Positions 11,067-51,554 of a stretch of DNA of 57,216 nucleotides are shown here, one piece after another. Source of the DNA: Gammaproteobacteria bacterium (GTDB lineage Bacteria > Pseudomonadota > Gammaproteobacteria > Steroidobacterales > GCA-2729495); NCBI GenBank assembly GCA_021773815.1, contig JAJFJS010000106.1, positions 1 to 57,216 on the forward strand. The letters are read 5' to 3'. Made by a program: the position numbers and the translations under genes. Each line of letters opens with the position of its first letter. Positions within the stretch are counted from its first letter, which is position 1. Under the pieces are notes generated by a model. The model did no database searches and was not told the DNA's origin. It saw nothing but the letters and a program-made list of their open reading frames with translations.

Positions 11067-11891
11067 TCAGGATCTGAAGTGGTTCTCCATGGCCTCGATG
11101 TAGCCCTCGAAGACCGAGTAGTTGTCTGCCACGACATCGACGCGCAGATCGCGTTGCCTGGCGCCGTTGGCGGTTACGGGTCCATAGCAGGCGATCGTGC
11201 GCTGATTCAGGATGTCGCGTCGTTCTCCCAGCAAGTGCAGCAGGCCGTCGATTTCTCCGACGCTGGTGAACGCGATCAGGTCCGGGACGTCGTCGAGAAT
11301 CATCTGTAATTCCGGTTCGAGTCCGCCTGTCATTCGCCGTGTCGCATACGCGGGTACGCGGTGGACATCCATTCCCAAGGCCTGCAGCCCATCAACAAAG
11401 TCGGGAATGACCGACGGCTCGTCCATACCGTAGACCTCGGGCACCGGCAGCAGGATCCTGCTGCCGTTCTCGCCGCGGCGTTCGAGTTCCTCGATGACGC
11501 CGCGTGTACTCGCGGCCGGCGGCAGCAGATCGACGGCAACGCCCTGAGCTTCCAGCGCCTTGCCGTCATTGCCCAGCGCGCTGACGCGGGTTCCGGACAG
11601 GACGCTCTTGTCCAGACCCAGCGCGTCGAGCCGGTTGAAGAATGCCTCGATGCCATTGCGGCTCGTGAAAGAGATCCAGTCATAATCGGCGAGGTGGCCG
11701 ATGGCTTCGTCGAACTTGGCATAGTCCTGCATCGGTTCGATGACGATCGTTGGCATCCAGATCGGCAGCGCGCCGTGCTGCACCAGCAGGCCGGCGAGCT
11801 TGCGCGCATAGTTCCGCGGCGCGCAGAACAGGATGCGTTTGCCGAACAGCGGTAGGTCGCTGCGCGCGATCAGTGTCTTTTCATTGTCCAT
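11067..11891 (-). CDS. hemD: Uroporphyrinogen-III synthase-like protein (HemD family)
   Basis: HemD closes hydroxymethylbilane to uroporphyrinogen III with inversion of ring D. The 274-residue protein has the two-lobed pattern of the family: an N-terminal LFCAPRNYARKLAGLLVQHG (like the usual start of HemD, where a valine-threonine-arginine is common), YDWISFTSRNGIEAFF, VSALGNDGKALEAQG, ILLPVP, and in the second half DLIAFTSVGEIDGLLHLL and IACYGPVTANGARQRDL. A GGAAGGA ribosome site precedes the ATG at 11891, and the start overlaps the upstream flavoprotein gene by 11 bases. The typical hemC partner is absent, so this looks like an accessory copy serving the nearby hemE paralogues. Confidence 0.85.
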   Translation of the reverse strand: MDNEKTLIARSDLPLFGKRILFCAPRNYARKLAGLLVQHGALPIWMPTIVIEPMQDYAKFDEAIGHLADYDWISFTSRNGIEAFFNRLDALGLDKSVLSGTRVSALGNDGKALEAQGVAVDLLPPAASTRGVIEELERRGENGSRILLPVPEVYGMDEPSVIPDFVDGLQALGMDVHRVPAYATRRMTGGLEPELQMILDDVPDLIAFTSVGEIDGLLHLLGERRDILNQRTIACYGPVTANGARQRDLRVDVVADNYSVFEGYIEAMENHFRS

Positions 11892-13999: not shown

Positions 14000-14287
14000 A
14001 TGGCGTTGAGAATTACTGACGAATGTCTGAATTGCTATGCTTGTATTTCTGATTGCCCGAATGAGGCGATCAGTGAGGGTGACGCAATCCATGTCATCGA
14101 TCCTCAGCGCTGCACAGAGTGTGTCGGGTCTTATGACCGGCCGAGTTGTATCGAGGTTTGCCCCGTCGAGGAAGCGATCGAATGGGATCCGGAGCGCGTG
14201 GAGACGGCCGATATACTGACCGAGCGCTGGAAGGGTCTGCATCCCGGCGAGACGCCGACTTTGTTTGATAAAAAGGAAACCGCTTGA
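14000..14287 (+). CDS. YfhL-type 4Fe-4S dicluster ferredoxin
   Basis: A 95-residue protein with an excellent AAGGAGG ribosome site 5 bases before the ATG. Cysteine spacing is CLNCYACISDCP (first cluster) and CTECVGSYDRPSCIEVCP (second cluster, with the longer insertion between the second and third cysteines seen in YfhL/FdxN-type ferredoxins). It would carry low-potential electrons, plausibly from the korAB oxidoreductase to the flavoprotein encoded just upstream. Its TGA shares one base with the ATG of the next gene, hemE copy 1, so the two are translationally coupled. Confidence 0.92.
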   Translation: MALRITDECLNCYACISDCPNEAISEGDAIHVIDPQRCTECVGSYDRPSCIEVCPVEEAIEWDPERVETADILTERWKGLHPGETPTLFDKKETA

Positions 14288-15327
14288 TGAACGACACGTT
14301 CCTCAGGGCCTGCCGAGGCGAAAAGGTTGATTTCACGCCGGTCTGGCTGATGCGTCAGGCCGGACGCTACCTGCCCCAGTATCAGAAAGTGCTGGCCCGG
14401 TCGGATTTCCTGACGGCCTGCCGGACGCCGGAGATCGCCGCGGAGATTACGATACAGCCGGTTGACGTTCTCGGTGTCGATGCCGCGATTTTCTATTCGG
14501 ACATCACGACGACGGTCGTGCCGATGGGCATGGATTTGCATTACGAGGCGGGCAAGGGTCCGTCGTATTCGAATCCGGTGCGCACGGCTGCCGATGCCGA
14601 ACGACTGATCGTGCCGGATGATCCGGCCGAGGGTCTCGGTTTCGTCTATGAAGCGCAGCGAATCTGCGCGCGCGAGCTGGAAAACCGAGTGCCGCTGATC
14701 GGCTTTGCCGGTGCGCCGTTTACGGTCGCCGCTTATATGGTCGAGGGTGGTGGCAGCCATTCGTTCGTCAATTATCGGCGCATGGCGTTTGCCGATCCGG
14801 CCACGTATTCGACCCTGATGGACAAGGTTTCCCGCCATACGGCCAACTACCTGAGGGCGCAGGCCGCGGCCGGGGCGAATGCACTGATGCTGTTCGATTC
14901 GCACGCGGGTCTGCTCGGGCCGCAGGACTACGAGTCACTGAACCTGCCCTACGTCAAACGAATTATCGCGGATATCAAGGATACCGGGGTGCCGATCATC
15001 TATTTTGGTCTCGGTGCGCACGGTTCGCTCGGCGCTATCAGTGAATGCGGTGCGGATGTCATTGGCATCGACTACGGGTTGCATCTCGGCGAGGCGGTCA
15101 AAGAGCTGGGCTCCGGTGTTTCCGTTCAGGGAAATGTCGAACCGCATATATTTTTCCAGACGCGTCGTGAGATCGAACGGCGCGTCGTTGAGACGCTGGC
15201 CGGCGGCAAGGCCGCGCGAGGACATGTGTTCAATCTTGGCCACGGCGTACCGCAGCACTCGCCGGTTGATCAGGTCAGGGCGATGGTCGATATCGTTCAC
15301 GAGACGAGCCAGGCCCGGGCGGCCTGA
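14287..15327 (+). CDS. hemE: Uroporphyrinogen decarboxylase, copy 1 (all catalytic positions kept)
   Basis: HemE removes the four acetate carboxyls of uroporphyrinogen to give coproporphyrinogen. In this 346-residue protein the residues known from human UROD are all present: both arginines of LMRQAGRYLP (residues 23 and 27), the aspartate of YSDITT (72), the tyrosine of AAYMVEGG (150), the serine of FDSHAG and the histidine of NLGHGV. All three copies here share SDITTTVVPMG where typical HemE has SDIL-VPDAMG, so they form one distinct subfamily. The start overlaps the ferredoxin stop by one base. It is probably the fully active member of the set. Confidence 0.92.
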   Translation: MNDTFLRACRGEKVDFTPVWLMRQAGRYLPQYQKVLARSDFLTACRTPEIAAEITIQPVDVLGVDAAIFYSDITTTVVPMGMDLHYEAGKGPSYSNPVRTAADAERLIVPDDPAEGLGFVYEAQRICARELENRVPLIGFAGAPFTVAAYMVEGGGSHSFVNYRRMAFADPATYSTLMDKVSRHTANYLRAQAAAGANALMLFDSHAGLLGPQDYESLNLPYVKRIIADIKDTGVPIIYFGLGAHGSLGAISECGADVIGIDYGLHLGEAVKELGSGVSVQGNVEPHIFFQTRREIERRVVETLAGGKAARGHVFNLGHGVPQHSPVDQVRAMVDIVHETSQARAA

Positions 15328-15336
15328 GGTAGCCGC

Positions 15337-16395
15337 ATGCAGAACGCCGTTATAAACAACAAGATGAATGACACGTTCCTGAAAGCATGCAGAGGCGATG
15401 ATGTCGATTACACGCCAGTCTGGTTGATGCGCCAGGCCGGACCGTTTCTGTCGCGTTATCGCAAGGTGCTGGCAAAGGTCGATTTCCTGACGGCCTGTCG
15501 AACCCCGGAGATTGCCGCCGAGATTACGATTCAGCCCGTCGATGATCTCGGCGTCGATGCCGCCATTTTCTATTCGGACATTACGACGACGGTCGTGCCG
15601 ATGGGCATGGATTTGAGCTATGTGCCGGGTAAGGGCCCCGTCTATGCGAACCCGGTCCGCACACGGGAGGATGCCGACCGTCTGCGTGTTCCCGAAGATG
15701 TTGCCGACGGTCTGGGGTTCGTGTTTGCTGCCCAGCAAATCTGTGCGCGCGAACTGGCGAACAAAGTACCGCTGATCGGTTTTGCCGGTGCGCCGTTTAC
15801 CGTGGCGGCCTACATGATCGAGGGTGCCGCGAGCCATACGCATGTCAATACGCGGCGCATGGCATTCGGAGATCCGACAACGTTCGCTGTCCTGATGGAA
15901 AAAGTTACGCGCCAGACCACGAACTATCTACGGCGCCAGGCCGAAGCCGGCGCCAATGCGCTGATGTTGTTTGATTCAAATGCGGGCATGTTGGGTCCGC
16001 GGGACTACCGCGAGTTGAATTTGCCATACGTGAAGCGCATTCTCGCCGACTTGGCAAACACTGGCGTTCCGCTGATCTATTTTGGCCTCGGTCAGCACGA
16101 TACACTGGCCGAGATCGCGGCATGCGGCGCCGACATGATTGGCATCGATTTCCGCAAGGACCTGCGTAGCGCTGTTGAGCAACTCGGTCCGGCAGTGTCG
16201 GTACAGGGCAATATCGAGCCCTACGTCTTTTTCGAGACGCGCGAACGGATGGAGCGGCGAGTTGCCGAAACACTGTCCGGCGCGACTGGTGCCCGTGGCC
16301 ACGTTTTCAACCTCGGGCATGGTGTGCCCGCCGACGCGCCGGAAGCGCAGGTAAAGGCGCTGGTCGATGCCGTGCATCGGCAAAGCGCCCGGTAG
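15337..16395 (+). CDS. Uroporphyrinogen decarboxylase-like protein, copy 2 (second active-site arginine replaced)
   Basis: A 352-residue tandem paralogue of copy 1, starting 9 bases after it. The start is ATG 15337, which has GAGG 7-8 bases upstream; a homologous start at 15364 has none. In the substrate-carboxylate loop the family sequence MRQAGRYLP is changed to MRQAGPFLS (residues 31-39), so the arginine equivalent to human Arg41 is proline. The aspartate (YSDITT), tyrosine (AAYMIEG), serine (FDSNAG) and histidine (NLGHGV) are kept. It may bind a different carboxylate pattern, decarboxylate only some side chains, or act as a partner subunit, since UROD is a dimer. Enzyme activity is uncertain. 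Confidence 0.88.
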   Translation: MQNAVINNKMNDTFLKACRGDDVDYTPVWLMRQAGPFLSRYRKVLAKVDFLTACRTPEIAAEITIQPVDDLGVDAAIFYSDITTTVVPMGMDLSYVPGKGPVYANPVRTREDADRLRVPEDVADGLGFVFAAQQICARELANKVPLIGFAGAPFTVAAYMIEGAASHTHVNTRRMAFGDPTTFAVLMEKVTRQTTNYLRRQAEAGANALMLFDSNAGMLGPRDYRELNLPYVKRILADLANTGVPLIYFGLGQHDTLAEIAACGADMIGIDFRKDLRSAVEQLGPAVSVQGNIEPYVFFETRERMERRVAETLSGATGARGHVFNLGHGVPADAPEAQVKALVDAVHRQSAR

Positions 16396-21296: not shown

Positions 21297-22328
21297 TCAG
21301 GCGACGCCGTGTGCATGCACGGCGTCGACCATCGCTTTGACGTGGTCGACGGGTGTGCCGGGCATGACGCCATGGCCGAGATTGAAGACATGGCCGCGTG
21401 CGGCCTTGCCCTGAAGCAGAGTCTCGCGCACGCGTTGCTCGATTTCGGTGGCTGATTGAAACAGCACGAACGGATCGAGGTTGCCCTGCACGGACACGCC
21501 GTTGCCGAGTTTCTTGATGGCGGTATCGAGGCGCAAGCCGTAATCGATACTGATGACGTCGGCGCCGCAATTCCCGAGTTTTGCCAGTGATCCGTGTGCG
21601 CCGAGTCCGAAATAGATCAGCGGCACGCCGGTGTCAGCGAGTTCGGCGCACAGTCGCTCGATATACGGCAGGTTCAGCTGGTCGAAATCCTGCGGGCTCA
21701 GAATGCCGGCAAACGAATCGAACAACATCAGCGCCTGGGCGCCGGCATGCGCCTGCGCTCGCAGGTAGTTTGTCGTGTGTGCCGTAATCTTGTCCATCAG
21801 CTGCAGGAATGCCGGCCGGTCGCCGAAAATCATTCGGCGCAGCCTGGCGTAGTCGCGGCTCATGGCGCCTTCGACCATAAAGGAGGCCATCGCCAGCGGG
21901 GCGCCGGCAAATCCGATCAGCGGCACCCGGTTGGCAAGTTCACCGGCGCAAATTCGGATCGCGTCATAGACGAAATCCAGCCCGTCATCGTCCGGATCCG
22001 GCACGCGCAGGCGATCGATGTCGGCCCGCGAGGTGATCGGGTGCGGGTAATACGGGCCGGTGCGATCGGAGTATTCGAGTTCGAGGCCCATCGGTACGAC
22101 GGTCGTCGTGATATCCGAGAAAATAATGGCGGCATCCACGCCCAGAATATCGACCGGTTGAATCGTGACCGCGGCAGCCAACTCCGGTGTGCGGCACATA
22201 GTCAGGAAATCCGTTTTTGAATGGATTGCCATGAACTCGGGCAGGTAACGACCCGCCTGGCGTTTCAGCCATACAGGTGTGAAATCGACGGGTTCTCCGC
22301 GGCAGGCGCGCAGGAAATTGTCATTCAT
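21297..22328 (-). CDS. Uroporphyrinogen decarboxylase-like protein, copy 3 (active-site tyrosine to phenylalanine)
   Basis: A 343-residue third HemE paralogue on the opposite strand. Both arginines of LKRQAGRYLP (residues 23 and 27), the aspartate of FSDITT (72), the serine of FDSFAG and the histidine of NLGHGV are kept, but the position of the conserved tyrosine (human Tyr164) is phenylalanine in ASFMVEG (residue 150). It shares SDITTTVVPMG with the other two copies, so all three arose from one subfamily. It lies 69 bases downstream of the second flavoprotein gene in an apparent two-gene operon, mirroring the flavoprotein-ferredoxin-hemE order on the other side. The tyrosine loss suggests changed rate or substrate, not necessarily inactivity. 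Confidence 0.9.
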   Translation of the reverse strand: MNDNFLRACRGEPVDFTPVWLKRQAGRYLPEFMAIHSKTDFLTMCRTPELAAAVTIQPVDILGVDAAIIFSDITTTVVPMGLELEYSDRTGPYYPHPITSRADIDRLRVPDPDDDGLDFVYDAIRICAGELANRVPLIGFAGAPLAMASFMVEGAMSRDYARLRRMIFGDRPAFLQLMDKITAHTTNYLRAQAHAGAQALMLFDSFAGILSPQDFDQLNLPYIERLCAELADTGVPLIYFGLGAHGSLAKLGNCGADVISIDYGLRLDTAIKKLGNGVSVQGNLDPFVLFQSATEIEQRVRETLLQGKAARGHVFNLGHGVMPGTPVDHVKAMVDAVHAHGVA

Positions 22329-36891: not shown

Positions 36892-37902
36892 ATGCACATC
36901 GAAATCATGCTGGAGCCGGATCGCACGCCGGACGAGATTGCTGAACTTGCGGTTCTCGCCGAGCAGGCCGGCATAACCGGACTGTGGGTGCAGAATTACG
37001 CCTCCTGCCGCGACCCGATCGTCAGCCTGGTGCCCGCGTGCCTGGCGACTTCCCGGATCAAGCTCGGTGTGGCCGTCGTCAGCGCTTACGAGATGCATCC
37101 GACCAAGCTGGCGAACCAGATGCTGACGCTTAATGAGTTCTGCGGCGGGCGCGCGGCGCTGGTTGTCGGTGGCGGCGGCGAGTGGCTGGTGCGCCTGGGC
37201 ATCCAGCCAGAGCGACGCGTGCGGATGGTCAAAGAGAGCCTGGAGATGATCAAGGGCGCCCGTCCCGATCGTGCGTTCAGCTACGAGGGTGAACTCTTCC
37301 AGATCCACGGTCACCAGCCGGCTTATGCAACCGACACGCCGCCGTTGATCTATACCGGCGCCAACCGGGAACAGATGCTCCGGGTTACGGCGCCGCTGGC
37401 CGACGGCGTGATGATGAGCGACATGCCGCATCCGCGTATCGACGAGGCCGTGGCGCAGATTCGCGCGGCGCTTACGGCGGCGGATCAACCCGCCGACGGG
37501 TACCGCATCAACAATATCTGGGCCTGGCACATCAAGCCGGACGCCGAACGGGGAATTCGCGAAGCGCGACGTGAGGTGTTGCTCAGGGGATTGCTCGAGC
37601 GATGGTACCTGGCGTCGTTCATGAGCCCCGACGACTGCGATTTCATCGTCGAGCACAAGGCCGCGTTCTACAAGGCCTATCACGGCAGACACGACAAGAT
37701 CGAGGGTGTGCCCGACCGACTGGTGCAGTCGTTGCTGGATAACCTGACGATCACCGGTGATCTGTCGGCGCTGGATGAGAAGCTCGATGCATTACGGGCG
37801 TTTGCGACGGCCGGCGTCAACGAACTCGCATTCCGCCTGCACGACGATCCGGATGAGGCTATCGCTATCATCGGCGAGCATGTCGTGCCGGCCTTTCAAT
37901 AG
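36892..37902 (+). CDS. LLM-class (luciferase-like) flavin-dependent oxidoreductase
   Basis: A 336-residue TIM-barrel protein with a good ribosome site (GGAGAGAG before ATG 36892). Family features are PDEIAELAVLAEQAGITGLW at the N-terminus, ATSRIKLGVAVVSAYEMHPT, LNEFCGGRAALVVGGGGEWL, and PPLIYTGANREQMLRVTAPLADG. Members use FMNH2 or F420 and oxidise or monooxygenate small molecules; methylene-H4MPT reductase-like proteins look similar. It stands alone after the repeat element, without a visible flavin reductase partner. Confidence 0.85.
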   Translation: MHIEIMLEPDRTPDEIAELAVLAEQAGITGLWVQNYASCRDPIVSLVPACLATSRIKLGVAVVSAYEMHPTKLANQMLTLNEFCGGRAALVVGGGGEWLVRLGIQPERRVRMVKESLEMIKGARPDRAFSYEGELFQIHGHQPAYATDTPPLIYTGANREQMLRVTAPLADGVMMSDMPHPRIDEAVAQIRAALTAADQPADGYRINNIWAWHIKPDAERGIREARREVLLRGLLERWYLASFMSPDDCDFIVEHKAAFYKAYHGRHDKIEGVPDRLVQSLLDNLTITGDLSALDEKLDALRAFATAGVNELAFRLHDDPDEAIAIIGEHVVPAFQ

Positions 37903-39013: not shown

Positions 39014-40123
39014 ATGCTTATCAATTTCTGGTATGCCGCGGCGTACAGCGAAGCGGTCACGGCGGACAAGCCGCTGAAGGTCAAGATGCTCGGTCAGCAT
39101 TTTGCCCTGTACCGCGATTCGAAAGGGGTCGCCCGTTGCGTTAGCGATATTTGTATCCACCGCAGTGCGTCGCTGGCCGGCGGCAAGATCAAGGGCGATT
39201 GCATCGAGTGCCCGTATCACGGCTGGCAGTTCAACGGCGACGGCGCCTGTACCAAGATCCCGTCGCTGGGTATCGACGGCAAGCCGCCGGCGCGCGCCAA
39301 GATCGATGCGTACCCGGTTGAGGAACGCTACGGGCTGGTGCACGTATTTCTCGGCGACCTGCCCGCGGAAGAGCGGCCGCCGATCATGGAGATCCCGGAA
39401 TGGGACCAGGAAGGCTGGCGCTGCATTCATCTTGAATATGACTGGAAAACGAACTGGGAACGTTCGGTCGAGGCGGGCCTTGACCCGGCGCATGCCGAGT
39501 TTGTGCACACGGGCATGAAGTTTGCCGGTTCAGACGAGGAATACATCATTCCTGAGTTAACTGTTGAACGGACTGAGTGGGGCGCGCAACAGAGTTTCGA
39601 TATCAAGACGATTGCGGCGCGCGGCGATCTGGAACACGTCAAACCCGAGGCCGCGCAGGTGACGGCCTTCGCATCGTTCCACGGACCGACGTGCACGGAA
39701 ACCCGGCTGACCCTCGCGCCCGGGCAGATCGTTATCCAGTACATGTTCGAGACGCCGATCGACGAGTTTCATATTAAGAAGCACCTGGTCAGCGCCCGCA
39801 CGGTCAACCTCGACCCCGGTTTCGATAAGCCGACGAACCAGATGAACCTGTTCGTTGCGGAGGAGGACCGGGTCATCATCGAAGAGGTAGATCCGGCGAT
39901 ATACCCCGAGTCGAATACCAAAGAATTGCTGGTGCCGGCCGACAAGCAGATCGCGATCTACCGCGAGATGATTGCCGAATGGGAAGCGCGCGGCTGGCGT
40001 ATCGATACGCGCCAGGTGGCGGCGGATCGTGGCCGCATCGGCTATGCCATTCCGTGCCCGGCACGCCGTACGCAGGCGAACTGGACGCTGGATTCGACGC
40101 CGATGCTGCCCGGCAAGGAGTAA
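39014..40123 (+). CDS. Rieske non-haem iron oxygenase, alpha subunit
   Basis: A 369-residue protein with AAGGAG 6 bases before the ATG. The Rieske cluster ligands are C47-x-H49 (DICIHR) and C66-x2-H69 (CPYHGW). The mononuclear iron site is D157, H160 and H165 in EAGLDPAHAEFVHTG. Layout and the CPYHGWQFNGDGACTKIPS stretch resemble the group containing pheophorbide a oxygenase, vanillate demethylase and phthalate-type oxygenases, which use a separate reductase; none is encoded nearby. The expression switch is probably the divergent GntR regulator. The substrate is unknown; a macrocyclic substrate is only suggested by the window's theme. Confidence 0.88.
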   Translation: MLINFWYAAAYSEAVTADKPLKVKMLGQHFALYRDSKGVARCVSDICIHRSASLAGGKIKGDCIECPYHGWQFNGDGACTKIPSLGIDGKPPARAKIDAYPVEERYGLVHVFLGDLPAEERPPIMEIPEWDQEGWRCIHLEYDWKTNWERSVEAGLDPAHAEFVHTGMKFAGSDEEYIIPELTVERTEWGAQQSFDIKTIAARGDLEHVKPEAAQVTAFASFHGPTCTETRLTLAPGQIVIQYMFETPIDEFHIKKHLVSARTVNLDPGFDKPTNQMNLFVAEEDRVIIEEVDPAIYPESNTKELLVPADKQIAIYREMIAEWEARGWRIDTRQVAADRGRIGYAIPCPARRTQANWTLDSTPMLPGKE

Positions 40124-40497: not shown

Positions 40498-42300
40498 CTA
40501 GCGTACCTGCTGCCAGACTTTTCGTGCGATATAGGCGCCGGCCAGCGGATTGTCGCTCGGCGGCTCCCACATGGCCCACGTACCGGTGTACTGAGACTGC
40601 ACCGGCGCATCGGCATCGACCGGTCCCTGTGCCGGGTCATAACCGAGATGTCCGAACTCGGACACGGCATAGGCCAGGTGCGGATCCAGCGCGCTGATCG
40701 GCTTGGTTGCCAGTGACTGCCGCTCGGGCGGGTAGGGTTGTGCGGTAGCCGGGCAACCACCCATCGCGAAACAGCAAGGCTCCGTGACCGAGTCGTCCAG
40801 ACTGCCCGGCAGGCGGCACTGCGTGTCCGCCCAGTTGCCCCAGTAGTCGGCGAACGGATGGCCGACGGCAGGATACGTGTCGTAGTCCTTGTCGTTCCAG
40901 TACAGCCAGTTCTTGTAGCCGACTTCCTTGGCGATCTGATTGGGTATCTCGACGAGACTCAGGACAGCATCGGAGAAGATCTGCGGGAATGCGATCACGA
41001 TGTGCTTGATGCCGCGATCCTTGAGTATCTCCAGCGCATCCCAATACAGGTGGCCGTCGAGTCCGTCGGGCAGAACCGCGTCGGTCTCATACAGGTAGGC
41101 TTCGCCAAGACTCTCGCCGCGCATCGCCCGGGTGCGTTCCAGCTGCGAAAACGTCGGCGGCGCCGGGATGATGTTCGGGTTGACATCCTTGCGGCCCAGC
41201 CAGGCGCCGAGGATGTTCTGCTCCTGCAGTCCCGGGAAGCGGATCTGCAGCGCATCGCGGATCTGCTCGTTCAGGATCAGCGTGTCGTCGATTTTCGGAT
41301 CGAAGAATTGCTGATCGGCACGGACATGATGGTTCATCAGGACGACGGCCTGCTCGGAGTAGGGTATATCCGCGCGCATCGTGGCGTTCACGCCCTGGAC
41401 GTACAGCCAGGCCAGCAGCGGATCCTCGACGAACGGGTTCGGCCGGCCCGCCAGTGGCACGGCGGAATCGAGCGTCGGTGCGCCCAGCGAAGCGGTCCAG
41501 CCCGCCGGTTCGACCGGGTAGGATTCCGTCATCAGGTCGGTGGGATCATTGACCCATTCGATCGTGATATCGGTGCCGTTGGCGGCGTTGTAGGCGTCGA
41601 CAACGGTGCGTGTTGCCGAGAGCTGATCGAAGGTCTTGAAGAACCGTACGCCGGTGGTTGTCGTGTCGACTATCACCAGTCGATCGATGTCATTGGTCAG
41701 CATGCGTTCTACCGCGCCGTCGACATTGAAGCGCTCCGGATCGCAACCCGGCCACGGACCACCGTCCATGAAGCTGCCGCAGTAGGTCAGCGGTGCGCCG
41801 CCGGTCACCTGCGGATTATAGATGCCCCGCGGGTTTGGCAGATCGGCCGGGTCATCGCTGATCCAGCTCATGCGGTCCGTGATGAATTGGACATCGTTCT
41901 TGTTAAACAGGTTGTGCCAGAAGGCGATGACATTGAGCGTGTTCGTCATGTCTTCGAGCTGCGCGTCGGTGATCGCATCGTAGGGGTCAGTGCCGCCGAT
42001 TCGTGCGTACTCGAAGTCGTACTTCATTGACTGTGCCTGGCCCGATTCCTCAAACAGCATGAACGGCCAGAAACCGGGGTTCCAGATTACGTTCCTGTAG
42101 ACGAAGGAATTGGGATCGTAGGAAAAGATTTGCGCGGCCGAGTCCCAGGATGCCTGTGGCCCCCAGGTTGCTGCGCCGCCGTGGACGGCATAGAGCACGC
42201 CAATGCGTTCGGTTTTGCCTTTGCCGCCGGCCTGCGCCCATCCCGAGGCGGTCAGAACCAGGCTAAGCAGGCCCAGCTTGAGTAGTTTGATGACTGACAT
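40498..42300 (-). CDS. Exported protein with a probable ferrochelatase-like fold, metal-site residues altered
   Basis: A 600-residue protein with an AAGGGGAG ribosome site and a signal peptide (LLKLGLLSLVLTASGWAQA). After it, RIGVLYAVHGGA (residues 32-43) resembles the first strand of chelatases, DRLVIVDTTTTG (206-217) the middle region, and the last third follows ferrochelatase order: AVVLMNHHV (318-326, where ferrochelatases have the catalytic histidine), an ILNEQIRDALQIRF helix, LDGHLYWDALEILKDRGIKH, and IAFPQIFSDAVLSLVEI (436-452). In ferrochelatase the last motif is SDHxETLYE; here the histidine and first glutamate are alanine and leucine. It may bind rather than metallate a tetrapyrrole in the periplasm. 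Fold assignment by eye only; the alternative is an unrelated exported protein of unknown function. Confidence 0.5.
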   Translation of the reverse strand: MSVIKLLKLGLLSLVLTASGWAQAGGKGKTERIGVLYAVHGGAATWGPQASWDSAAQIFSYDPNSFVYRNVIWNPGFWPFMLFEESGQAQSMKYDFEYARIGGTDPYDAITDAQLEDMTNTLNVIAFWHNLFNKNDVQFITDRMSWISDDPADLPNPRGIYNPQVTGGAPLTYCGSFMDGGPWPGCDPERFNVDGAVERMLTNDIDRLVIVDTTTTGVRFFKTFDQLSATRTVVDAYNAANGTDITIEWVNDPTDLMTESYPVEPAGWTASLGAPTLDSAVPLAGRPNPFVEDPLLAWLYVQGVNATMRADIPYSEQAVVLMNHHVRADQQFFDPKIDDTLILNEQIRDALQIRFPGLQEQNILGAWLGRKDVNPNIIPAPPTFSQLERTRAMRGESLGEAYLYETDAVLPDGLDGHLYWDALEILKDRGIKHIVIAFPQIFSDAVLSLVEIPNQIAKEVGYKNWLYWNDKDYDTYPAVGHPFADYWGNWADTQCRLPGSLDDSVTEPCCFAMGGCPATAQPYPPERQSLATKPISALDPHLAYAVSEFGHLGYDPAQGPVDADAPVQSQYTGTWAMWEPPSDNPLAGAYIARKVWQQVR

Positions 42301-42627: not shown

Positions 42628-43632
42628 TTGCCGGTTGAAAAACAGAACAAAGACAAGGTGGTGCCGTTGAAATCACCGCGGCTTCCCAATCAGGTTGATT
42701 ACCTGGCGTTCTACGTCGCCATCCCGGTCCTGTTCGGCATCTGGGCTACGCCGTACATCGTGCCGCCGACCGACGTGCTCGATTTCGGTGAGCCGTTCAT
42801 CTATGTCTACGTCTGTTTCCGGGCGTTTTCCGCATGGTTGATTATTGACCTGGCCTGTCGCTGTATCGGCCATTCCGGCGCCCGGTTTCGATTCCCGTTG
42901 TGGTTAATTTTTCTGATCGGCTTCGTCGTCGCGTGCGGACCCATCATGCTGTTTGCATACGTCGCCACTGAGGTGTTTCGTCTGCGGAATCCGAACATCG
43001 CCGAATTTATCGGCCATAAGTATCTCGGCTGGAATCTCAACTACTTCTGGACCGTCTTCAAGTACGCCGGGCCTGGTTTGGTGGCCTGGTTCATCGCGGC
43101 CTACGGCTACATGAAGTTGTTCAATGTCCGGTTGTTCAGCTATGCGCCCGACCGATCAGAGGAAGATGTGCAACAGGATGATGCGCGGCAATCTGCGTCG
43201 GATCCTGACTCGGCGGCCACGGCGTTGAGTGCGTCGCTCGACCCGCTATCCGACACCGCGCCGGATGCGGTACCGAGCTTTCTGCTGAATAGCCGCTTGC
43301 CCGAAACCGCGTGCGTCTATGCGATCAAGGCCGAAGAGCACTACATTCGGATATGGACGGAAGGCGGCACGGACCTGTTGCGCCACCGGTTCAAGGATGC
43401 CGTCAATGAGATGCGGTATGCCGGCGGGCTGCAGGTGCACCGGTCCTGGTGGGTCAGGCTATCGGCCGTTGCTGAATTCCGTGCCAAGGGCAGGGCGATG
43501 GAACTGACCATCGATGCGCTGGATCTGCAGGTGCCGGTCAGCCTGTCTTATAAGCAGGCATTGCTGAATGCCCTTGAAGAGCGGGGCATGGTTGACGAGG
43601 CGGAAGACGCTGACGGTCGACTGCTGGTCTAG
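42628..43632 (+). CDS. Membrane-bound LytTR-domain transcriptional regulator
   Basis: About 334 residues. Four hydrophobic segments lie in the first 170 residues (for example YLAFYVAIPVLFGIWATPYI and PLWLIFLIGFVVACGPIMLF), followed by an acidic linker and a C-terminal LytTR DNA-binding domain from about residue 225 (ACVYAIKAEEHYIRIWTEGG, LQVHRSWWVRLSAVAEF, VPVSLSYKQALLNAL). Membrane-tethered LytTR proteins control their targets in response to signals at the membrane. The TTG at 42628 is the longest start; internal GTG codons near 42658-42661 are alternatives, so the N-terminus is uncertain. Its target may be the divergent exported gene. Confidence 0.8.
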   Translation: MPVEKQNKDKVVPLKSPRLPNQVDYLAFYVAIPVLFGIWATPYIVPPTDVLDFGEPFIYVYVCFRAFSAWLIIDLACRCIGHSGARFRFPLWLIFLIGFVVACGPIMLFAYVATEVFRLRNPNIAEFIGHKYLGWNLNYFWTVFKYAGPGLVAWFIAAYGYMKLFNVRLFSYAPDRSEEDVQQDDARQSASDPDSAATALSASLDPLSDTAPDAVPSFLLNSRLPETACVYAIKAEEHYIRIWTEGGTDLLRHRFKDAVNEMRYAGGLQVHRSWWVRLSAVAEFRAKGRAMELTIDALDLQVPVSLSYKQALLNALEERGMVDEAEDADGRLLV

Positions 43633-47283: not shown

Positions 47284-47474
47284 TTTTTTTCTGATCCATT
47301 CCCCTACATTGTTTGTTATTCATCTACGTTAAGAAACCTTTACATTAGAATCACTTGAGCATAATTTCGGCCTCAACAGGTTCACCGCGATTAACGCATA
47401 TTTCGCTAATCGGGTGCATATAGGTTGCATCAGTTGATCTGACTCGATCCGCTGGTGCCCCAGTGGAAAGGTCG

Positions 47475-48740
47475 ATGAAAAGCAATCGGTTTCGATTTAC
47501 CAAGGCATGGTTGAATGCCTTATTGGTGCCGCCGGGAGTCCGGCAACGCTTCTATTATGATGAAGCAGCGCATGGGCTATGCGTCAGCGTTACCCAGTCG
47601 GGGACCAAAGCATTCTATGTGCTGCGGAAATTCAAAGGCCGCACTGAGCGCGTGCATGTCGGTCGATACCCAGCGACAACAATTGCCCAGGCCCGCAAGC
47701 GAGCGGGCCAGATCAACAGCCAGTTCGATGCGGGACACAATGCCAACGAGATCAAGCGCCGCGAGCGCGGTGAACTGACGCTCGAGGATCTCTATGCGGA
47801 ATACATGAAAAGACATGCCTATGTGCATAATCGGCGGCCGGATTTGCCCGAGTATAACTACCGGTTATACCTTTCACATTGGGCCAAGCGGCGCCTATCG
47901 ATGATTAGCAAACTCGACGTTCAGCGCTGGCACGCCCGAACGGGGGCCGAACGCGGCGAGCGCACGGCGAATAATGCTCTGAGCCTGCTACGCGCCATAT
48001 ACAACCGCGCAATTGATTGGGATCTTTTTACCGGCATCAATCCTGCCACGGGGGTCAGACAGTTCAAGAATCGATCTCGGGACCGGTTCCTGCTGCCTGA
48101 TGAACTTAAGCGCTTTCTCGATGCCCTCAGGGAGGAGTCGAACCACACGATTCGTGATTTCATTTTGCTGTTGCTGCTGACAGGTGCGCGCAAGACCAAT
48201 GCCCTTACCATGCGCTGGAAGGATCTTAATCTCGACAGCGGTGTGTGGACGATCCCGGATACCAAGAACGGTGAGCCGCTTGTTCTGCCGCTCTCACCGC
48301 AGGCACTCACAGTTTTGCAGCAACGGGCCGCCAGAATGTCCGTGAAGTCGGAAAAAATCGTACCTATCGACAAGACTATAGGTGCCAGCATTGGAGGCCA
48401 TGACAGGCTTTTCCTTGAATCTGAATATGTATTTCCGGGAACTGGTAAATCCGGCCATCTGCAGGATCCCAAAAAGCGTTGGAAGGCTTTACTTCAGAGA
48501 GCAAACATTCAGAATTTTCGCATGCACGATTTAAGGCGTACGCATGGGAGCTATATGGCTGCAGCGGGGGTAAGTGCCCTAGTGATCGGGCGAGCCTTGG
48601 GACATAAAGATATTGCGACCACGGCCATTTATGCGCGCATCGATCTTGAGCCTGTTCGTATAGCTGCCGATCAGGCGGCTCGTATAATGCTTCAGGATAT
48701 GGAAGTATCGCTATTCACGCCCCAAGAAATACAGAAATAA
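47475..48740 (+). CDS. int: Tyrosine-type integrase (P4/prophage-like site-specific recombinase)
   Basis: A 421-residue protein. The N-terminal DUF4102-type domain is FYYDEAAHGLCVSVTQSGTK and YVLRKFKGRTERVHVGRYP, then an arm/core-binding domain, then the catalytic part with the arginine of LTGARKTNALTMRWKDLNL, the HDLRRTHGSY box (H-x-x-R), GHKD, and the nucleophile tyrosine in TTAIYARID. The start is ATG 47475 (purine-rich GGAAAGG just upstream); a GTG at 47463 would add 4 residues. It lies on the 5' side of the tRNA fragment, that is, at the end with the displaced fragment. It should catalyse insertion and excision at tRNA-Arg. Confidence 0.93.
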   Translation: MKSNRFRFTKAWLNALLVPPGVRQRFYYDEAAHGLCVSVTQSGTKAFYVLRKFKGRTERVHVGRYPATTIAQARKRAGQINSQFDAGHNANEIKRRERGELTLEDLYAEYMKRHAYVHNRRPDLPEYNYRLYLSHWAKRRLSMISKLDVQRWHARTGAERGERTANNALSLLRAIYNRAIDWDLFTGINPATGVRQFKNRSRDRFLLPDELKRFLDALREESNHTIRDFILLLLLTGARKTNALTMRWKDLNLDSGVWTIPDTKNGEPLVLPLSPQALTVLQQRAARMSVKSEKIVPIDKTIGASIGGHDRLFLESEYVFPGTGKSGHLQDPKKRWKALLQRANIQNFRMHDLRRTHGSYMAAAGVSALVIGRALGHKDIATTAIYARIDLEPVRIAADQAARIMLQDMEVSLFTPQEIQK

Positions 48741-49793: not shown

Positions 49794-51554
49794 ATGTACC
49801 AGGACGGCCTTATGGGTGAATCTCTAGCTCAAAACTCTCGACCTCTCGTGCCACATAGCGGGTCTCGCGCTCTCCTGGATGCCCGTCTTGCGACCATTGA
49901 TATCGCGGGACTGCATCGACGTGTCCGCGATCGTATCTTGCCGATCTACCCGCCAACCCTGCAAAGCGCACTGAAAAGCGAATACCTGGATATCGCCGGT
50001 CTGACCCGAACTCGGATTCCCGGTGCGCCTCACTGGCACCATGATTCCTGGGCGCGAGCTAACCTCAATCTGCATGATCGTAACCGGCAACTTAAAGCCG
50101 GTCGCTTTGCTTTGGCTGACCAGCCCCAGGAAGTACGCGCCAAAGCAGCTCGCTGCGCCCGAATCTGCCGGGGGCTGACACGCAAGCGTGATCATCAGGC
50201 TGCCTATGCAGCAGCAAGCAAGTTTGCGATCTCCCAGAATATCAAGCCTCCCGCACCAGCCGGACCGACTCGATCAGTTCACGGCTGCCTCTTGCGGTTG
50301 ACCGACGATAGATGGTGGCGTCGCGTTCTCAAGCGAGCCGTTTACAAGGCCTCAGAGGAAGTCGAACGCGATCTGGGGCTGGTACAGGCCCAGGCTGGCT
50401 TGTATTCCTCCGATGACGCTGTTAACCGCCGCCTGGCTGACCGGGAACGCTCGCACAACCTGCTGCAGGAAACCTATGCCGTTAATGAGTTGGGTGAATC
50501 ATTTAGCCTGGCAGAACTGGCCGAATTGTCGGTTAGTAACCCGGTAATCCGGCGCACGGAGTTGATGGTTCGCCTGCGGGGCTTTGAAGAATACGGCGAA
50601 AAGCACGGCCACATCGGGGAGTTTTTCACGCTGACATTGCCCAGTCGCTTTCACGCCTTTCGCCGCTCGGGCCAGAGGAATCCACGTTATGAGGGCCGAA
50701 ATCCCGGTGATGGGCAAGCCTGGCTAAATTCCGTTTGGGCCCGCATTCGCGCCAGACTTCATCGGCTCGGTATTCCGATCTATGGCGTTCGCGTTGCCGA
50801 ACCTCATCATGACGGCACACCGCATTGGCACATGCTGTTGTATTTTGACGGTTCACATCAGGCAACCATCCATCAGGTGTTTCGCCAATATCTGTTGGCA
50901 GAATCCCCGGATGAGCCTGGGGCGCTGGAACATCGCCTTAAGATCATTGCTATCGATCCGGAGAAAGGCAGCGCTACCGGCTACTTTGCCAAGTACATCT
51001 CGAAAAATATCGATGGCCATAAAGTCGGGCAAGATTTCGAGGATCATAAATTTGGGCGCGATGCTGCCGAAACCTCGGTGCGCGTCGAGGCTTGGGCCTC
51101 GCTTTGGCGAATCCGTCAATTTCAACAGATCGGCGGGCCGCCGGTCGGTGTATGGCGCGAATTGCGCCGCTTAAAGGCCCCGACGGGTGAACGCTTCGAG
51201 CCTGCTCGCCAGGCCGCCGATCAGGGCGACTGGTGCGCTTTTATGGAGGCCATGGGGGGTATCTCGGTTCTGTGCCGGGACCGGCCGATACGAATTCTGA
51301 AGGTTTGGAGTGAACTGCCCGGGACTTATGGCGATCCGGTCGGTTTCGTAATAGACGGAATTGAAAGCGGTCCGGAAAGTATTTCGACGCGGCTCGTGGA
51401 ATGGAAAATTTTGTGGGGGTCCGATGTCGTGCCCTCTCGGACCTGTGTCAATAACTGTACGGGTGGTCATCACTCAGATATTGATTTTCGCGGCCAATCA
51501 CCCCCGGAACTCGGCCGGACGGGCAATTCCGTTGGGTATGAGATGCGAAATTGA
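49794..51554 (+). CDS. Phage P2 gpA-like replication initiation endonuclease (HUH superfamily)
   Basis: A 586-residue protein. The HUH metal motif is in PHHDGTPHWHMLLYF (around residue 340), and the catalytic tyrosines are in GYFAKYISKNIDGHK (around 400), the pair used by P2 gpA-type proteins in rolling-circle replication. A long N-terminal region (residues 1-250) carries the charged helices of this family, and the C-terminal 150 residues are less conserved. The presence of gpA without phage structural genes suggests an element that replicates after excision, such as a satellite or mobilisable island. A start at ATG 49812 is possible. Confidence 0.85.
   Translation: MYQDGLMGESLAQNSRPLVPHSGSRALLDARLATIDIAGLHRRVRDRILPIYPPTLQSALKSEYLDIAGLTRTRIPGAPHWHHDSWARANLNLHDRNRQLKAGRFALADQPQEVRAKAARCARICRGLTRKRDHQAAYAAASKFAISQNIKPPAPAGPTRSVHGCLLRLTDDRWWRRVLKRAVYKASEEVERDLGLVQAQAGLYSSDDAVNRRLADRERSHNLLQETYAVNELGESFSLAELAELSVSNPVIRRTELMVRLRGFEEYGEKHGHIGEFFTLTLPSRFHAFRRSGQRNPRYEGRNPGDGQAWLNSVWARIRARLHRLGIPIYGVRVAEPHHDGTPHWHMLLYFDGSHQATIHQVFRQYLLAESPDEPGALEHRLKIIAIDPEKGSATGYFAKYISKNIDGHKVGQDFEDHKFGRDAAETSVRVEAWASLWRIRQFQQIGGPPVGVWRELRRLKAPTGERFEPARQAADQGDWCAFMEAMGGISVLCRDRPIRILKVWSELPGTYGDPVGFVIDGIESGPESISTRLVEWKILWGSDVVPSRTCVNNCTGGHHSDIDFRGQSPPELGRTGNSVGYEMRN

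Follow-up and report, generated by a model that had tools for sequence, protein, structure and literature searches.

The locus described here raises the question of what a ferrochelatase-like protein would do outside the cytoplasm. Ferrochelatase is the enzyme that places iron in haem. The gene lies in a 57,216-nucleotide stretch of contig JAJFJS010000106.1 from a gammaproteobacterial genome (GCA_021773815.1), and this whole stretch is referred to as the window. The original prediction, made from the sequence alone, described an exported 600-residue protein with a ferrochelatase-like order of motifs but without metal-insertion residues, and proposed a periplasmic tetrapyrrole-binding protein or a chelatase with new chemistry. 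The protein and its relatives are called family A in the following, and the coordinates of the relevant features are collected in Table 1.

Table 1. Features of the window, with residue numbers of the window protein and conservation among 38 aligned family A members.
Feature	Position	Strand	Remarks
HemD	11067-11891	-	
HemE	14284-15327	+	over NCBIfam hemE cut-off
HemE	15337-16395	+	over NCBIfam hemE cut-off
HemE	21297-22328	-	over NCBIfam hemE cut-off
Luciferase-like (LLM) oxidoreductase	36892..37902	+	Pfam; context only
Rieske/VanA-type oxygenase, tail-to-tail neighbour	39014..40123	+	Pfam; context only
Exported ferrochelatase-fold protein (family A), predicted	40498..42300	minus	ATG start, 600 aa
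Cysteine cluster C495, C509, C510, C516, C-terminal part	40753..40818	minus	each 38/38
E451, acidic, one helical turn past the lost Glu (= HemH E300)	40948..40950	minus	38/38
L447, at the catalytic Glu position (human E343)	40960..40962	minus	Leu 37/38, Trp 1
H324, just after strand 317-323; catalytic His position (human H263)	41329..41331	minus	38/38
H40, within VHGG, where strand 31-42 ends; human M76 position	42181..42183	minus	38/38
Putative signal peptide, about residues 1-25 (MSVIKLLKLGLLSLVLTASGWAQAG)	42226..42300	minus	by eye
LytTR-type regulator	42628..43632	+	Pfam LytTR 2.3e-11; divergent from the family A gene, 327 bp apart

Coding evidence, export and predicted fold

The open reading frame was borne out exactly as predicted. 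It is genuinely coding, as judged by the differences at codon positions 1/2/3 from its closest relatives L011 and L012 (68-69% identity), which amounted to 139/105/278 and 141/104/264, respectively, and by matches in 34 of the 99 genomes of our panel (the host, itself a carrier, and 98 relatives; 16 families). Searches of the window protein gave a single chance match in Pfam (E 3), no family in NCBIfam and no sequence relative in the PDB by phmmer, and the PDB searched with the family A profile also returned a single chance match (E 2). Against the ferrochelatase profile PF00762, the window protein had no match at E<=10, and the other family A protein of the host scored 9.7 bits, with the Pfam cut-off at 27 bits. 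The profile search suggested in the original prediction therefore did not reach the family cut-off, but it did return sub-cut-off matches of PF00762 to the N-terminal part of five family A members (G051, G095, G064, G096 and G018; E 4.4e-4 to 9e-3, 14.7-19.7 bits). We regard these matches as an independent sign of the ferrochelatase fold, short of membership in the PF00762 family.

The claim of export agrees with the N-terminus of the window protein, where a signal is evident by eye, and with alignment A1, which comprises 38 family A members and contains 81 invariant columns (L022, with the same score and length as L021, was omitted). A strongly hydrophobic N-terminal stretch was found in 37 of the 38 members, the exception being L001 (score 0.92), whose start was possibly chosen too late, and a simple lipobox pattern was matched by 12 of the 38. 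Judged by eye from these N-termini, family A is predicted to be periplasmic and lipid-anchored in some relatives, which departs from the cytoplasmic or matrix-facing location typical of ferrochelatase.

The structure prediction and fold comparison that had been proposed yielded a confident AlphaFold2 model of the window protein, built with alignment A1 (pLDDT 92.2, pTM 0.90), which contains both Rossmann-like domains of the class II chelatase superfamily (ferrochelatase/CbiK/SirB type). The refutation test set with the original prediction was thus decided for that prediction. Foldseek returned 44 matches in the PDB at E<=0.001, every one of them a ferrochelatase or CpfC, followed by a solute-binding protein at E 6.1e-3. 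The best agreement in VIA-align was found with Listeria CpfC (LmCpfC; Z 27.5, rmsd 2.5 Å, 297/308 residues), human ferrochelatase chains reached Z 24.0-25.9, and SirB, periplasmic CbiK (2xvx) and FetB (9b86) followed at 16.5, 16.0 and 15.8. The first unrelated protein had a Z of 10.3, in a list that barely tests other folds because chelatases occupy places 1-48. At the level of the model, we consider it settled that the window protein has the whole ferrochelatase fold, and the ferrochelatase-like motif order noticed at the outset is real. A protein of CbiK/FetB type was rejected on the Z values (15.8-16.0 vs 27.5 for HemH-type enzymes).

Active-site residues and invariant cysteines

The assignment of H324 to the catalytic histidine position is based on the preceding strand of the model and on a downstream DP motif. 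The invariant D334-P335 after H324 parallels the invariant D226-P227 after HemH H215, with a spacing of H-x(9)-DP in family A vs H-x(10)-DP in HemH, and HemH H215 and E296 align with human H263 and E343. The predicted NHH at this position was confirmed, with the histidine unchanged throughout A1. For the second motif, a local profile alignment of low significance (E 0.085) sets family A residues 421-457 on HemH 270-306, in which FSDAVLSLVE aligns gaplessly to SADCLETLEE, L447 falls on E296 and E451 on E300. From this gapless alignment, the human H341 and E343 positions would correspond to A445 and L447, the former being Ser in 37 of the 38 A1 members. The original reading, in which FSDAVLSLVE takes the place of SDHxETLYE and both His and Glu are lost, is upheld by these counts within the limits of the weak mapping. 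In the HemH comparison set, the catalytic Glu and E300 are each present in 29 of 29 sequences. Since a Glu of the proton-abstraction network appears to be replaced by Leu, normal iron insertion is unlikely.

At the human M76 position, the register is given by LNHGGP in the human M76H chain, TNLGTP in HemH and AVHGGA in the window protein, and the N-terminal profile alignment of A1 vs HemH behind it is weak as well (E 0.022, probability 2.2). The human M76 position corresponds to B. subtilis Y13. According to a study of human ferrochelatase, M76 is located opposite H263, and all H263 variants studied were inactive (PMC9133952). The same study describes the M76 position as variable among true ferrochelatases and tolerant of change (PMC9133952), so H40 need not be special.

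Overall, the residue mapping is weak, as it depends on these two profile alignments and on motif order. Within it, the claim that the protein has no metal-insertion residues is correct for Glu343 (Leu) and His341 (Ser/Ala), but it goes too far for the remaining site, where H324 and E451 are invariant and H40 would occupy the M76 position. Measured against ferrochelatase, family A thus appears to retain the catalytic His and to lack the catalytic Glu. Q440, I441 and H433 are likewise conserved in 38/38 members. Plain HemH was rejected as an identity on account of the PF00762 score, the changed Glu position and the predicted export.

Together with C174 and C186, also found in 38/38 sequences, the cysteine cluster in the C-terminal part brings the number of invariant cysteines in A1 to six, and family A is enlarged by insertions that carry them. 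Disulphides in the cluster are likely, and they are likelier than a [2Fe-2S] centre in the six cysteines because the protein is predicted to be exported. In [2Fe-2S] ferrochelatases, the cluster is bound by four cysteines.

Distribution, haem synthesis and neighbouring genes

The 34 carriers are limited to three families of the panel, f1 (24/40), f13 (5/5) and f14 (5/5). A draw of 398 genomes across the phylum contained no carrier besides the host (1/398), and plasmid records gave no match. Eight further relatives were found in MAGs assigned to Alphaproteobacteria (2), Rhodospirillaceae (4), Gammaproteobacteria (1) and Proteobacteria (1); the haem-gene counts cover the 99-genome panel. The search comprised HemB, HemC, HemF, HemN and HemH of the ordinary pathway. 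HemH was counted above 150 bits and HemN over its cut-off, whereas the limit for HemF was E<=1e-10, which admits three weak matches (G007, G047 and G060). Coproporphyrinogen oxidase was mostly missing from the carriers, as HemF or over-cut-off HemN was found in 1/34 of them vs 43/65 non-carriers (HemF 0/34 and HemN 1/34 among carriers), and HemH was found in 9/34 vs 45/65, a contrast that Fisher values overstate because only three lineages are involved and descent confounds the comparison. Long HemH matches were distributed as 4/40 in f1, 5/5 in f13 and 0/5 in f14. Within f1, HemH was present in 4/24 carriers and 0/16 non-carriers, which is no significant link to family A (p 0.14). Neither HemB nor HemC was detected in the host or in any of the ten f13/f14 genomes, but f1 genomes had HemB in 35/40 and HemC in 32/40.

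In the host genome (98.95% complete), HemB, HemC, HemF and HemN had no match at E<=1e-10 and PF00762 had none over the cut-off, in an assembly of 149 contigs that may have gaps; another haem route, such as Ahb or HemQ, may also exist in the host. HemD and three HemE genes were detected; all three HemE lie within the window and are the only URO-D matches in the genome. The tetrapyrrole theme ascribed to the window is therefore real, but these genes lie 18-29 kb from the family A gene. The HemE/HemD region also contains two flavoproteins that resemble geranylgeranyl reductase, together with a TonB receptor. Near the contig end, two phage-related genes (47463-48740 and 49794-51554) encode an integrase and a replication gene A protein, and they probably belong to an integrated element.

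The operon survey comprised 40 family A loci from 38 genomes or records with DNA around the whole gene and omitted the matches in G037, G039, G065 and G096 as well as short fragments in G003 and G027; flanks were 1.5 kb or less in 11 of the 40, and the loci from named MAGs come from one pattern scan and do not form a complete set. The next same-strand downstream gene encoded a HiPIP in 6/40 loci from five genera (G005, G009, G010, G011, G015 and G025), a DUF1838 protein in 9/40 (the eight surveyed f13/f14 genomes and the MAG locus L006) and an LLM oxidoreductase in 2/40 (G019 and G030), with an LLM gene nearby in 5/40. These names are Pfam assignments. Each of the six HiPIPs, and each of the six DUF1838 proteins inspected, begins with what looks by eye like a twin-arginine leader, so both partners look exported. 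Neither a HiPIP nor a DUF1838 gene was found beside the window copy. HiPIPs usually have high potentials and would therefore be poorly suited as haem reductants. DUF1838 had no relative among solved structures by sequence, with one match at E 0.26; examples of its genes are located at 5290-6150 in L006, 10534-11394 in L060 and about 3186-4016 in L033.

Beside the window copy itself, the divergent arrangement with a LytTR-type gene recurs in the two closest family A orthologues, where LytTR-related ORFs were recognised by ORF clustering (L046 and L047; 28% identical in L047). A Rieske gene was found near family A in 6/40 loci, on the opposite strand in four of these six. Since the host genome contains 13 Rieske matches, chance alone would place some of them close to family A, and the association is only suggestive.

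As judged by eye for export, the host encodes six exported chelatase-like proteins, namely two of family A, three of a second family (family B) and one CbiX-like lipoprotein. Family B (L040-L042 and L095) occurs in 23/99 genomes including the host, and its members have about 500 residues, an N-terminal hydrophobic helix and apparently a membrane anchor. NCBIfam gave no name for the two members scanned, and the family B model, like that of family A, has the ferrochelatase fold (pLDDT 90.4, Z 24.4 over 317 residues, 3.4 Å). An S-x-H-G-M motif is present in 28/28 sequences and D409, also 28/28, lies by eye at the catalytic Glu position. The profile comparison of families A and B is weak (E 0.0037, probability 8.9). 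Of the 40 loci, only that of G005 has family B beside family A, with the family B gene upstream on the same strand. Two of the host copies stand in tandem and are followed by an LLM gene (family B coordinates L041 904-2412, L042 556-2079 and L040 1285-2778, on contigs C35 and C96). The CbiX-like lipoprotein, with an NHGSE motif, directly follows a membrane protein that gave weak matches of NosR, RnfG and NapH type (L043, 49-1257 and 1309-2271, contig C138), and it may be a further case of an exported chelatase paired with a redox protein.

Possible roles and comparison with known systems

Taking fold, residues and export together, the original proposal of a periplasmic tetrapyrrole-binding protein or a chelatase with new chemistry still fits best. 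Within it, we give roughly even chances to the reading that family A works in the periplasm as a (de)chelatase or a binder of metallo-tetrapyrroles with an H324/H40 site, serving the acquisition or processing of haem or porphyrin. The cleft of the ferrochelatase fold would hold a metallo-tetrapyrrole between H324 and H40, one histidine to each face, so that its metal could be gripped from either side. Speculatively, the metal of an externally acquired tetrapyrrole might then be removed, exchanged or carried, possibly with help from the HiPIP or DUF1838 partner whose gene is adjacent in relatives. Lineages whose ordinary haem pathway is incomplete might in this way acquire or process haem or porphyrin. 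In its boldest form, this proposal pictures a ferrochelatase turned outward and reversed, a periplasmic de-chelatase that grips the metal of imported haem or another metalloporphyrin between two His and releases or swaps it with the aid of HiPIP or DUF1838, in a lineage that would have abandoned ordinary haem synthesis and has six exported chelatase-like proteins in its place; we put this version forward tentatively and consider it rather doubtful.

Among the alternatives, a non-catalytic periplasmic carrier or sensor of tetrapyrroles, i.e., a haemophore-like pseudo-chelatase using the cleft for binding only, is possible but would not be our first expectation. The loss of the Glu343/His341 network with retention of the His, the export and the lipoboxes would all suit it, and the human E343K variant is described as an inactive enzyme that co-purifies with protoporphyrin (PMC9133952). 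However, the 81 invariant columns, many of them charged (K93, D212, R219, K222, R389, R391, R394, E396 and E451), suggest a function beyond passive binding, as does the operon with a redox protein in 6/40 loci. An exported chelatase that inserts a non-iron metal, or uses another tetrapyrrole, by two-histidine chemistry seems unlikely, as FetB and CbiK, with about 260 residues, agree with the model much more poorly than enzymes of HemH type do (Z 15.8-16.0 vs 27.5). In its favour, FetB and periplasmic CbiK both appear in the fold list, and FetB is said in a review to insert Mn into protoporphyrin (PMC13402209). Tetrapyrrole catabolism, in which, for instance, pigments derived from chlorophyll or haem would lose their Mg or Fe ahead of ring opening by oxygenases, is the least probable reading, since the nearby Rieske (6/40) and LLM genes (5/40, directly downstream in two) and the LLM gene after the host family B pair speak for it, but four of the six Rieske genes lie on the opposite strand and the 13 Rieske matches of the host make some proximity a matter of chance.

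The reading as a periplasmic binder or (de)chelatase would matter beyond this locus. To our knowledge, the proteins that handle the pigment outside the cytoplasm in haem-dependent bacteria are mostly unknown. Several aquatic bacteria are reported to depend on haem. The host shows no ordinary ferrochelatase, and family A may reveal how bacteria of this kind deal with haem or related pigments from outside the cell. An exported family with a swapped active site, found in operons with other apparently exported proteins, offers a concrete protein to test, and it may serve as a natural experiment that separates the ferrochelatase residues needed for insertion from those needed for binding or release of the metal.

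Phrase searches of the open-licence PMC literature for an exported or periplasmic ferrochelatase or chelatase, and for 'ferrochelatase-like' together with periplasm and signal peptide, found none. We regard family A as an exported, rewired protein of predicted ferrochelatase-type chelatase fold. With HemH/CpfC (PF00762) it shares the predicted fold, the motif order, the His at the catalytic position and the acidic residue one turn past the Glu. In contrast to HemH/CpfC, family A is predicted to be exported, is about twice as long, has six invariant Cys and shows about 15% identity in structural alignment; it carries Leu at Glu343, Ser/Ala at His341 and His at the M76 position, and it stays under the PF00762 cut-off.

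Closer in location is CbiK of Desulfovibrio vulgaris, a periplasmic cobalt chelatase. Judging from the title of PDB entry 2xvx, it is an exported class II chelatase like family A; however, it is a 262-residue protein of CbiK type with a far lower match (Z 16.0) than HemH-type enzymes. FetB of Porphyromonas gingivalis is an exported lipoprotein (IhtB), CbiK-like and about 260 residues long. It shares the class II chelatase fold with family A (9b86, Z 15.8), and in a review it is linked to porphyrin handling and described as making MnPPIX (PMC13402209). Periplasmic CbiK and FetB thus provide precedent for exported chelatase-fold proteins. HmuS of Bacteroidota, a haem de-chelatase in haem acquisition, is a Class I protein of CobN/ChlH type and only a functional parallel. 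The haem that it holds by Met79/His254 has to be reduced before porphyrin release, and a second site, with His-carboxylate pairs, is proposed for metal removal. The authors see no evolutionary or structural relationship of HmuS to ferrochelatases, yet find its head and neck domains distantly alike to them (PMC12583661). FetB and HmuS make metal-tetrapyrrole chemistry outside ordinary synthesis plausible.
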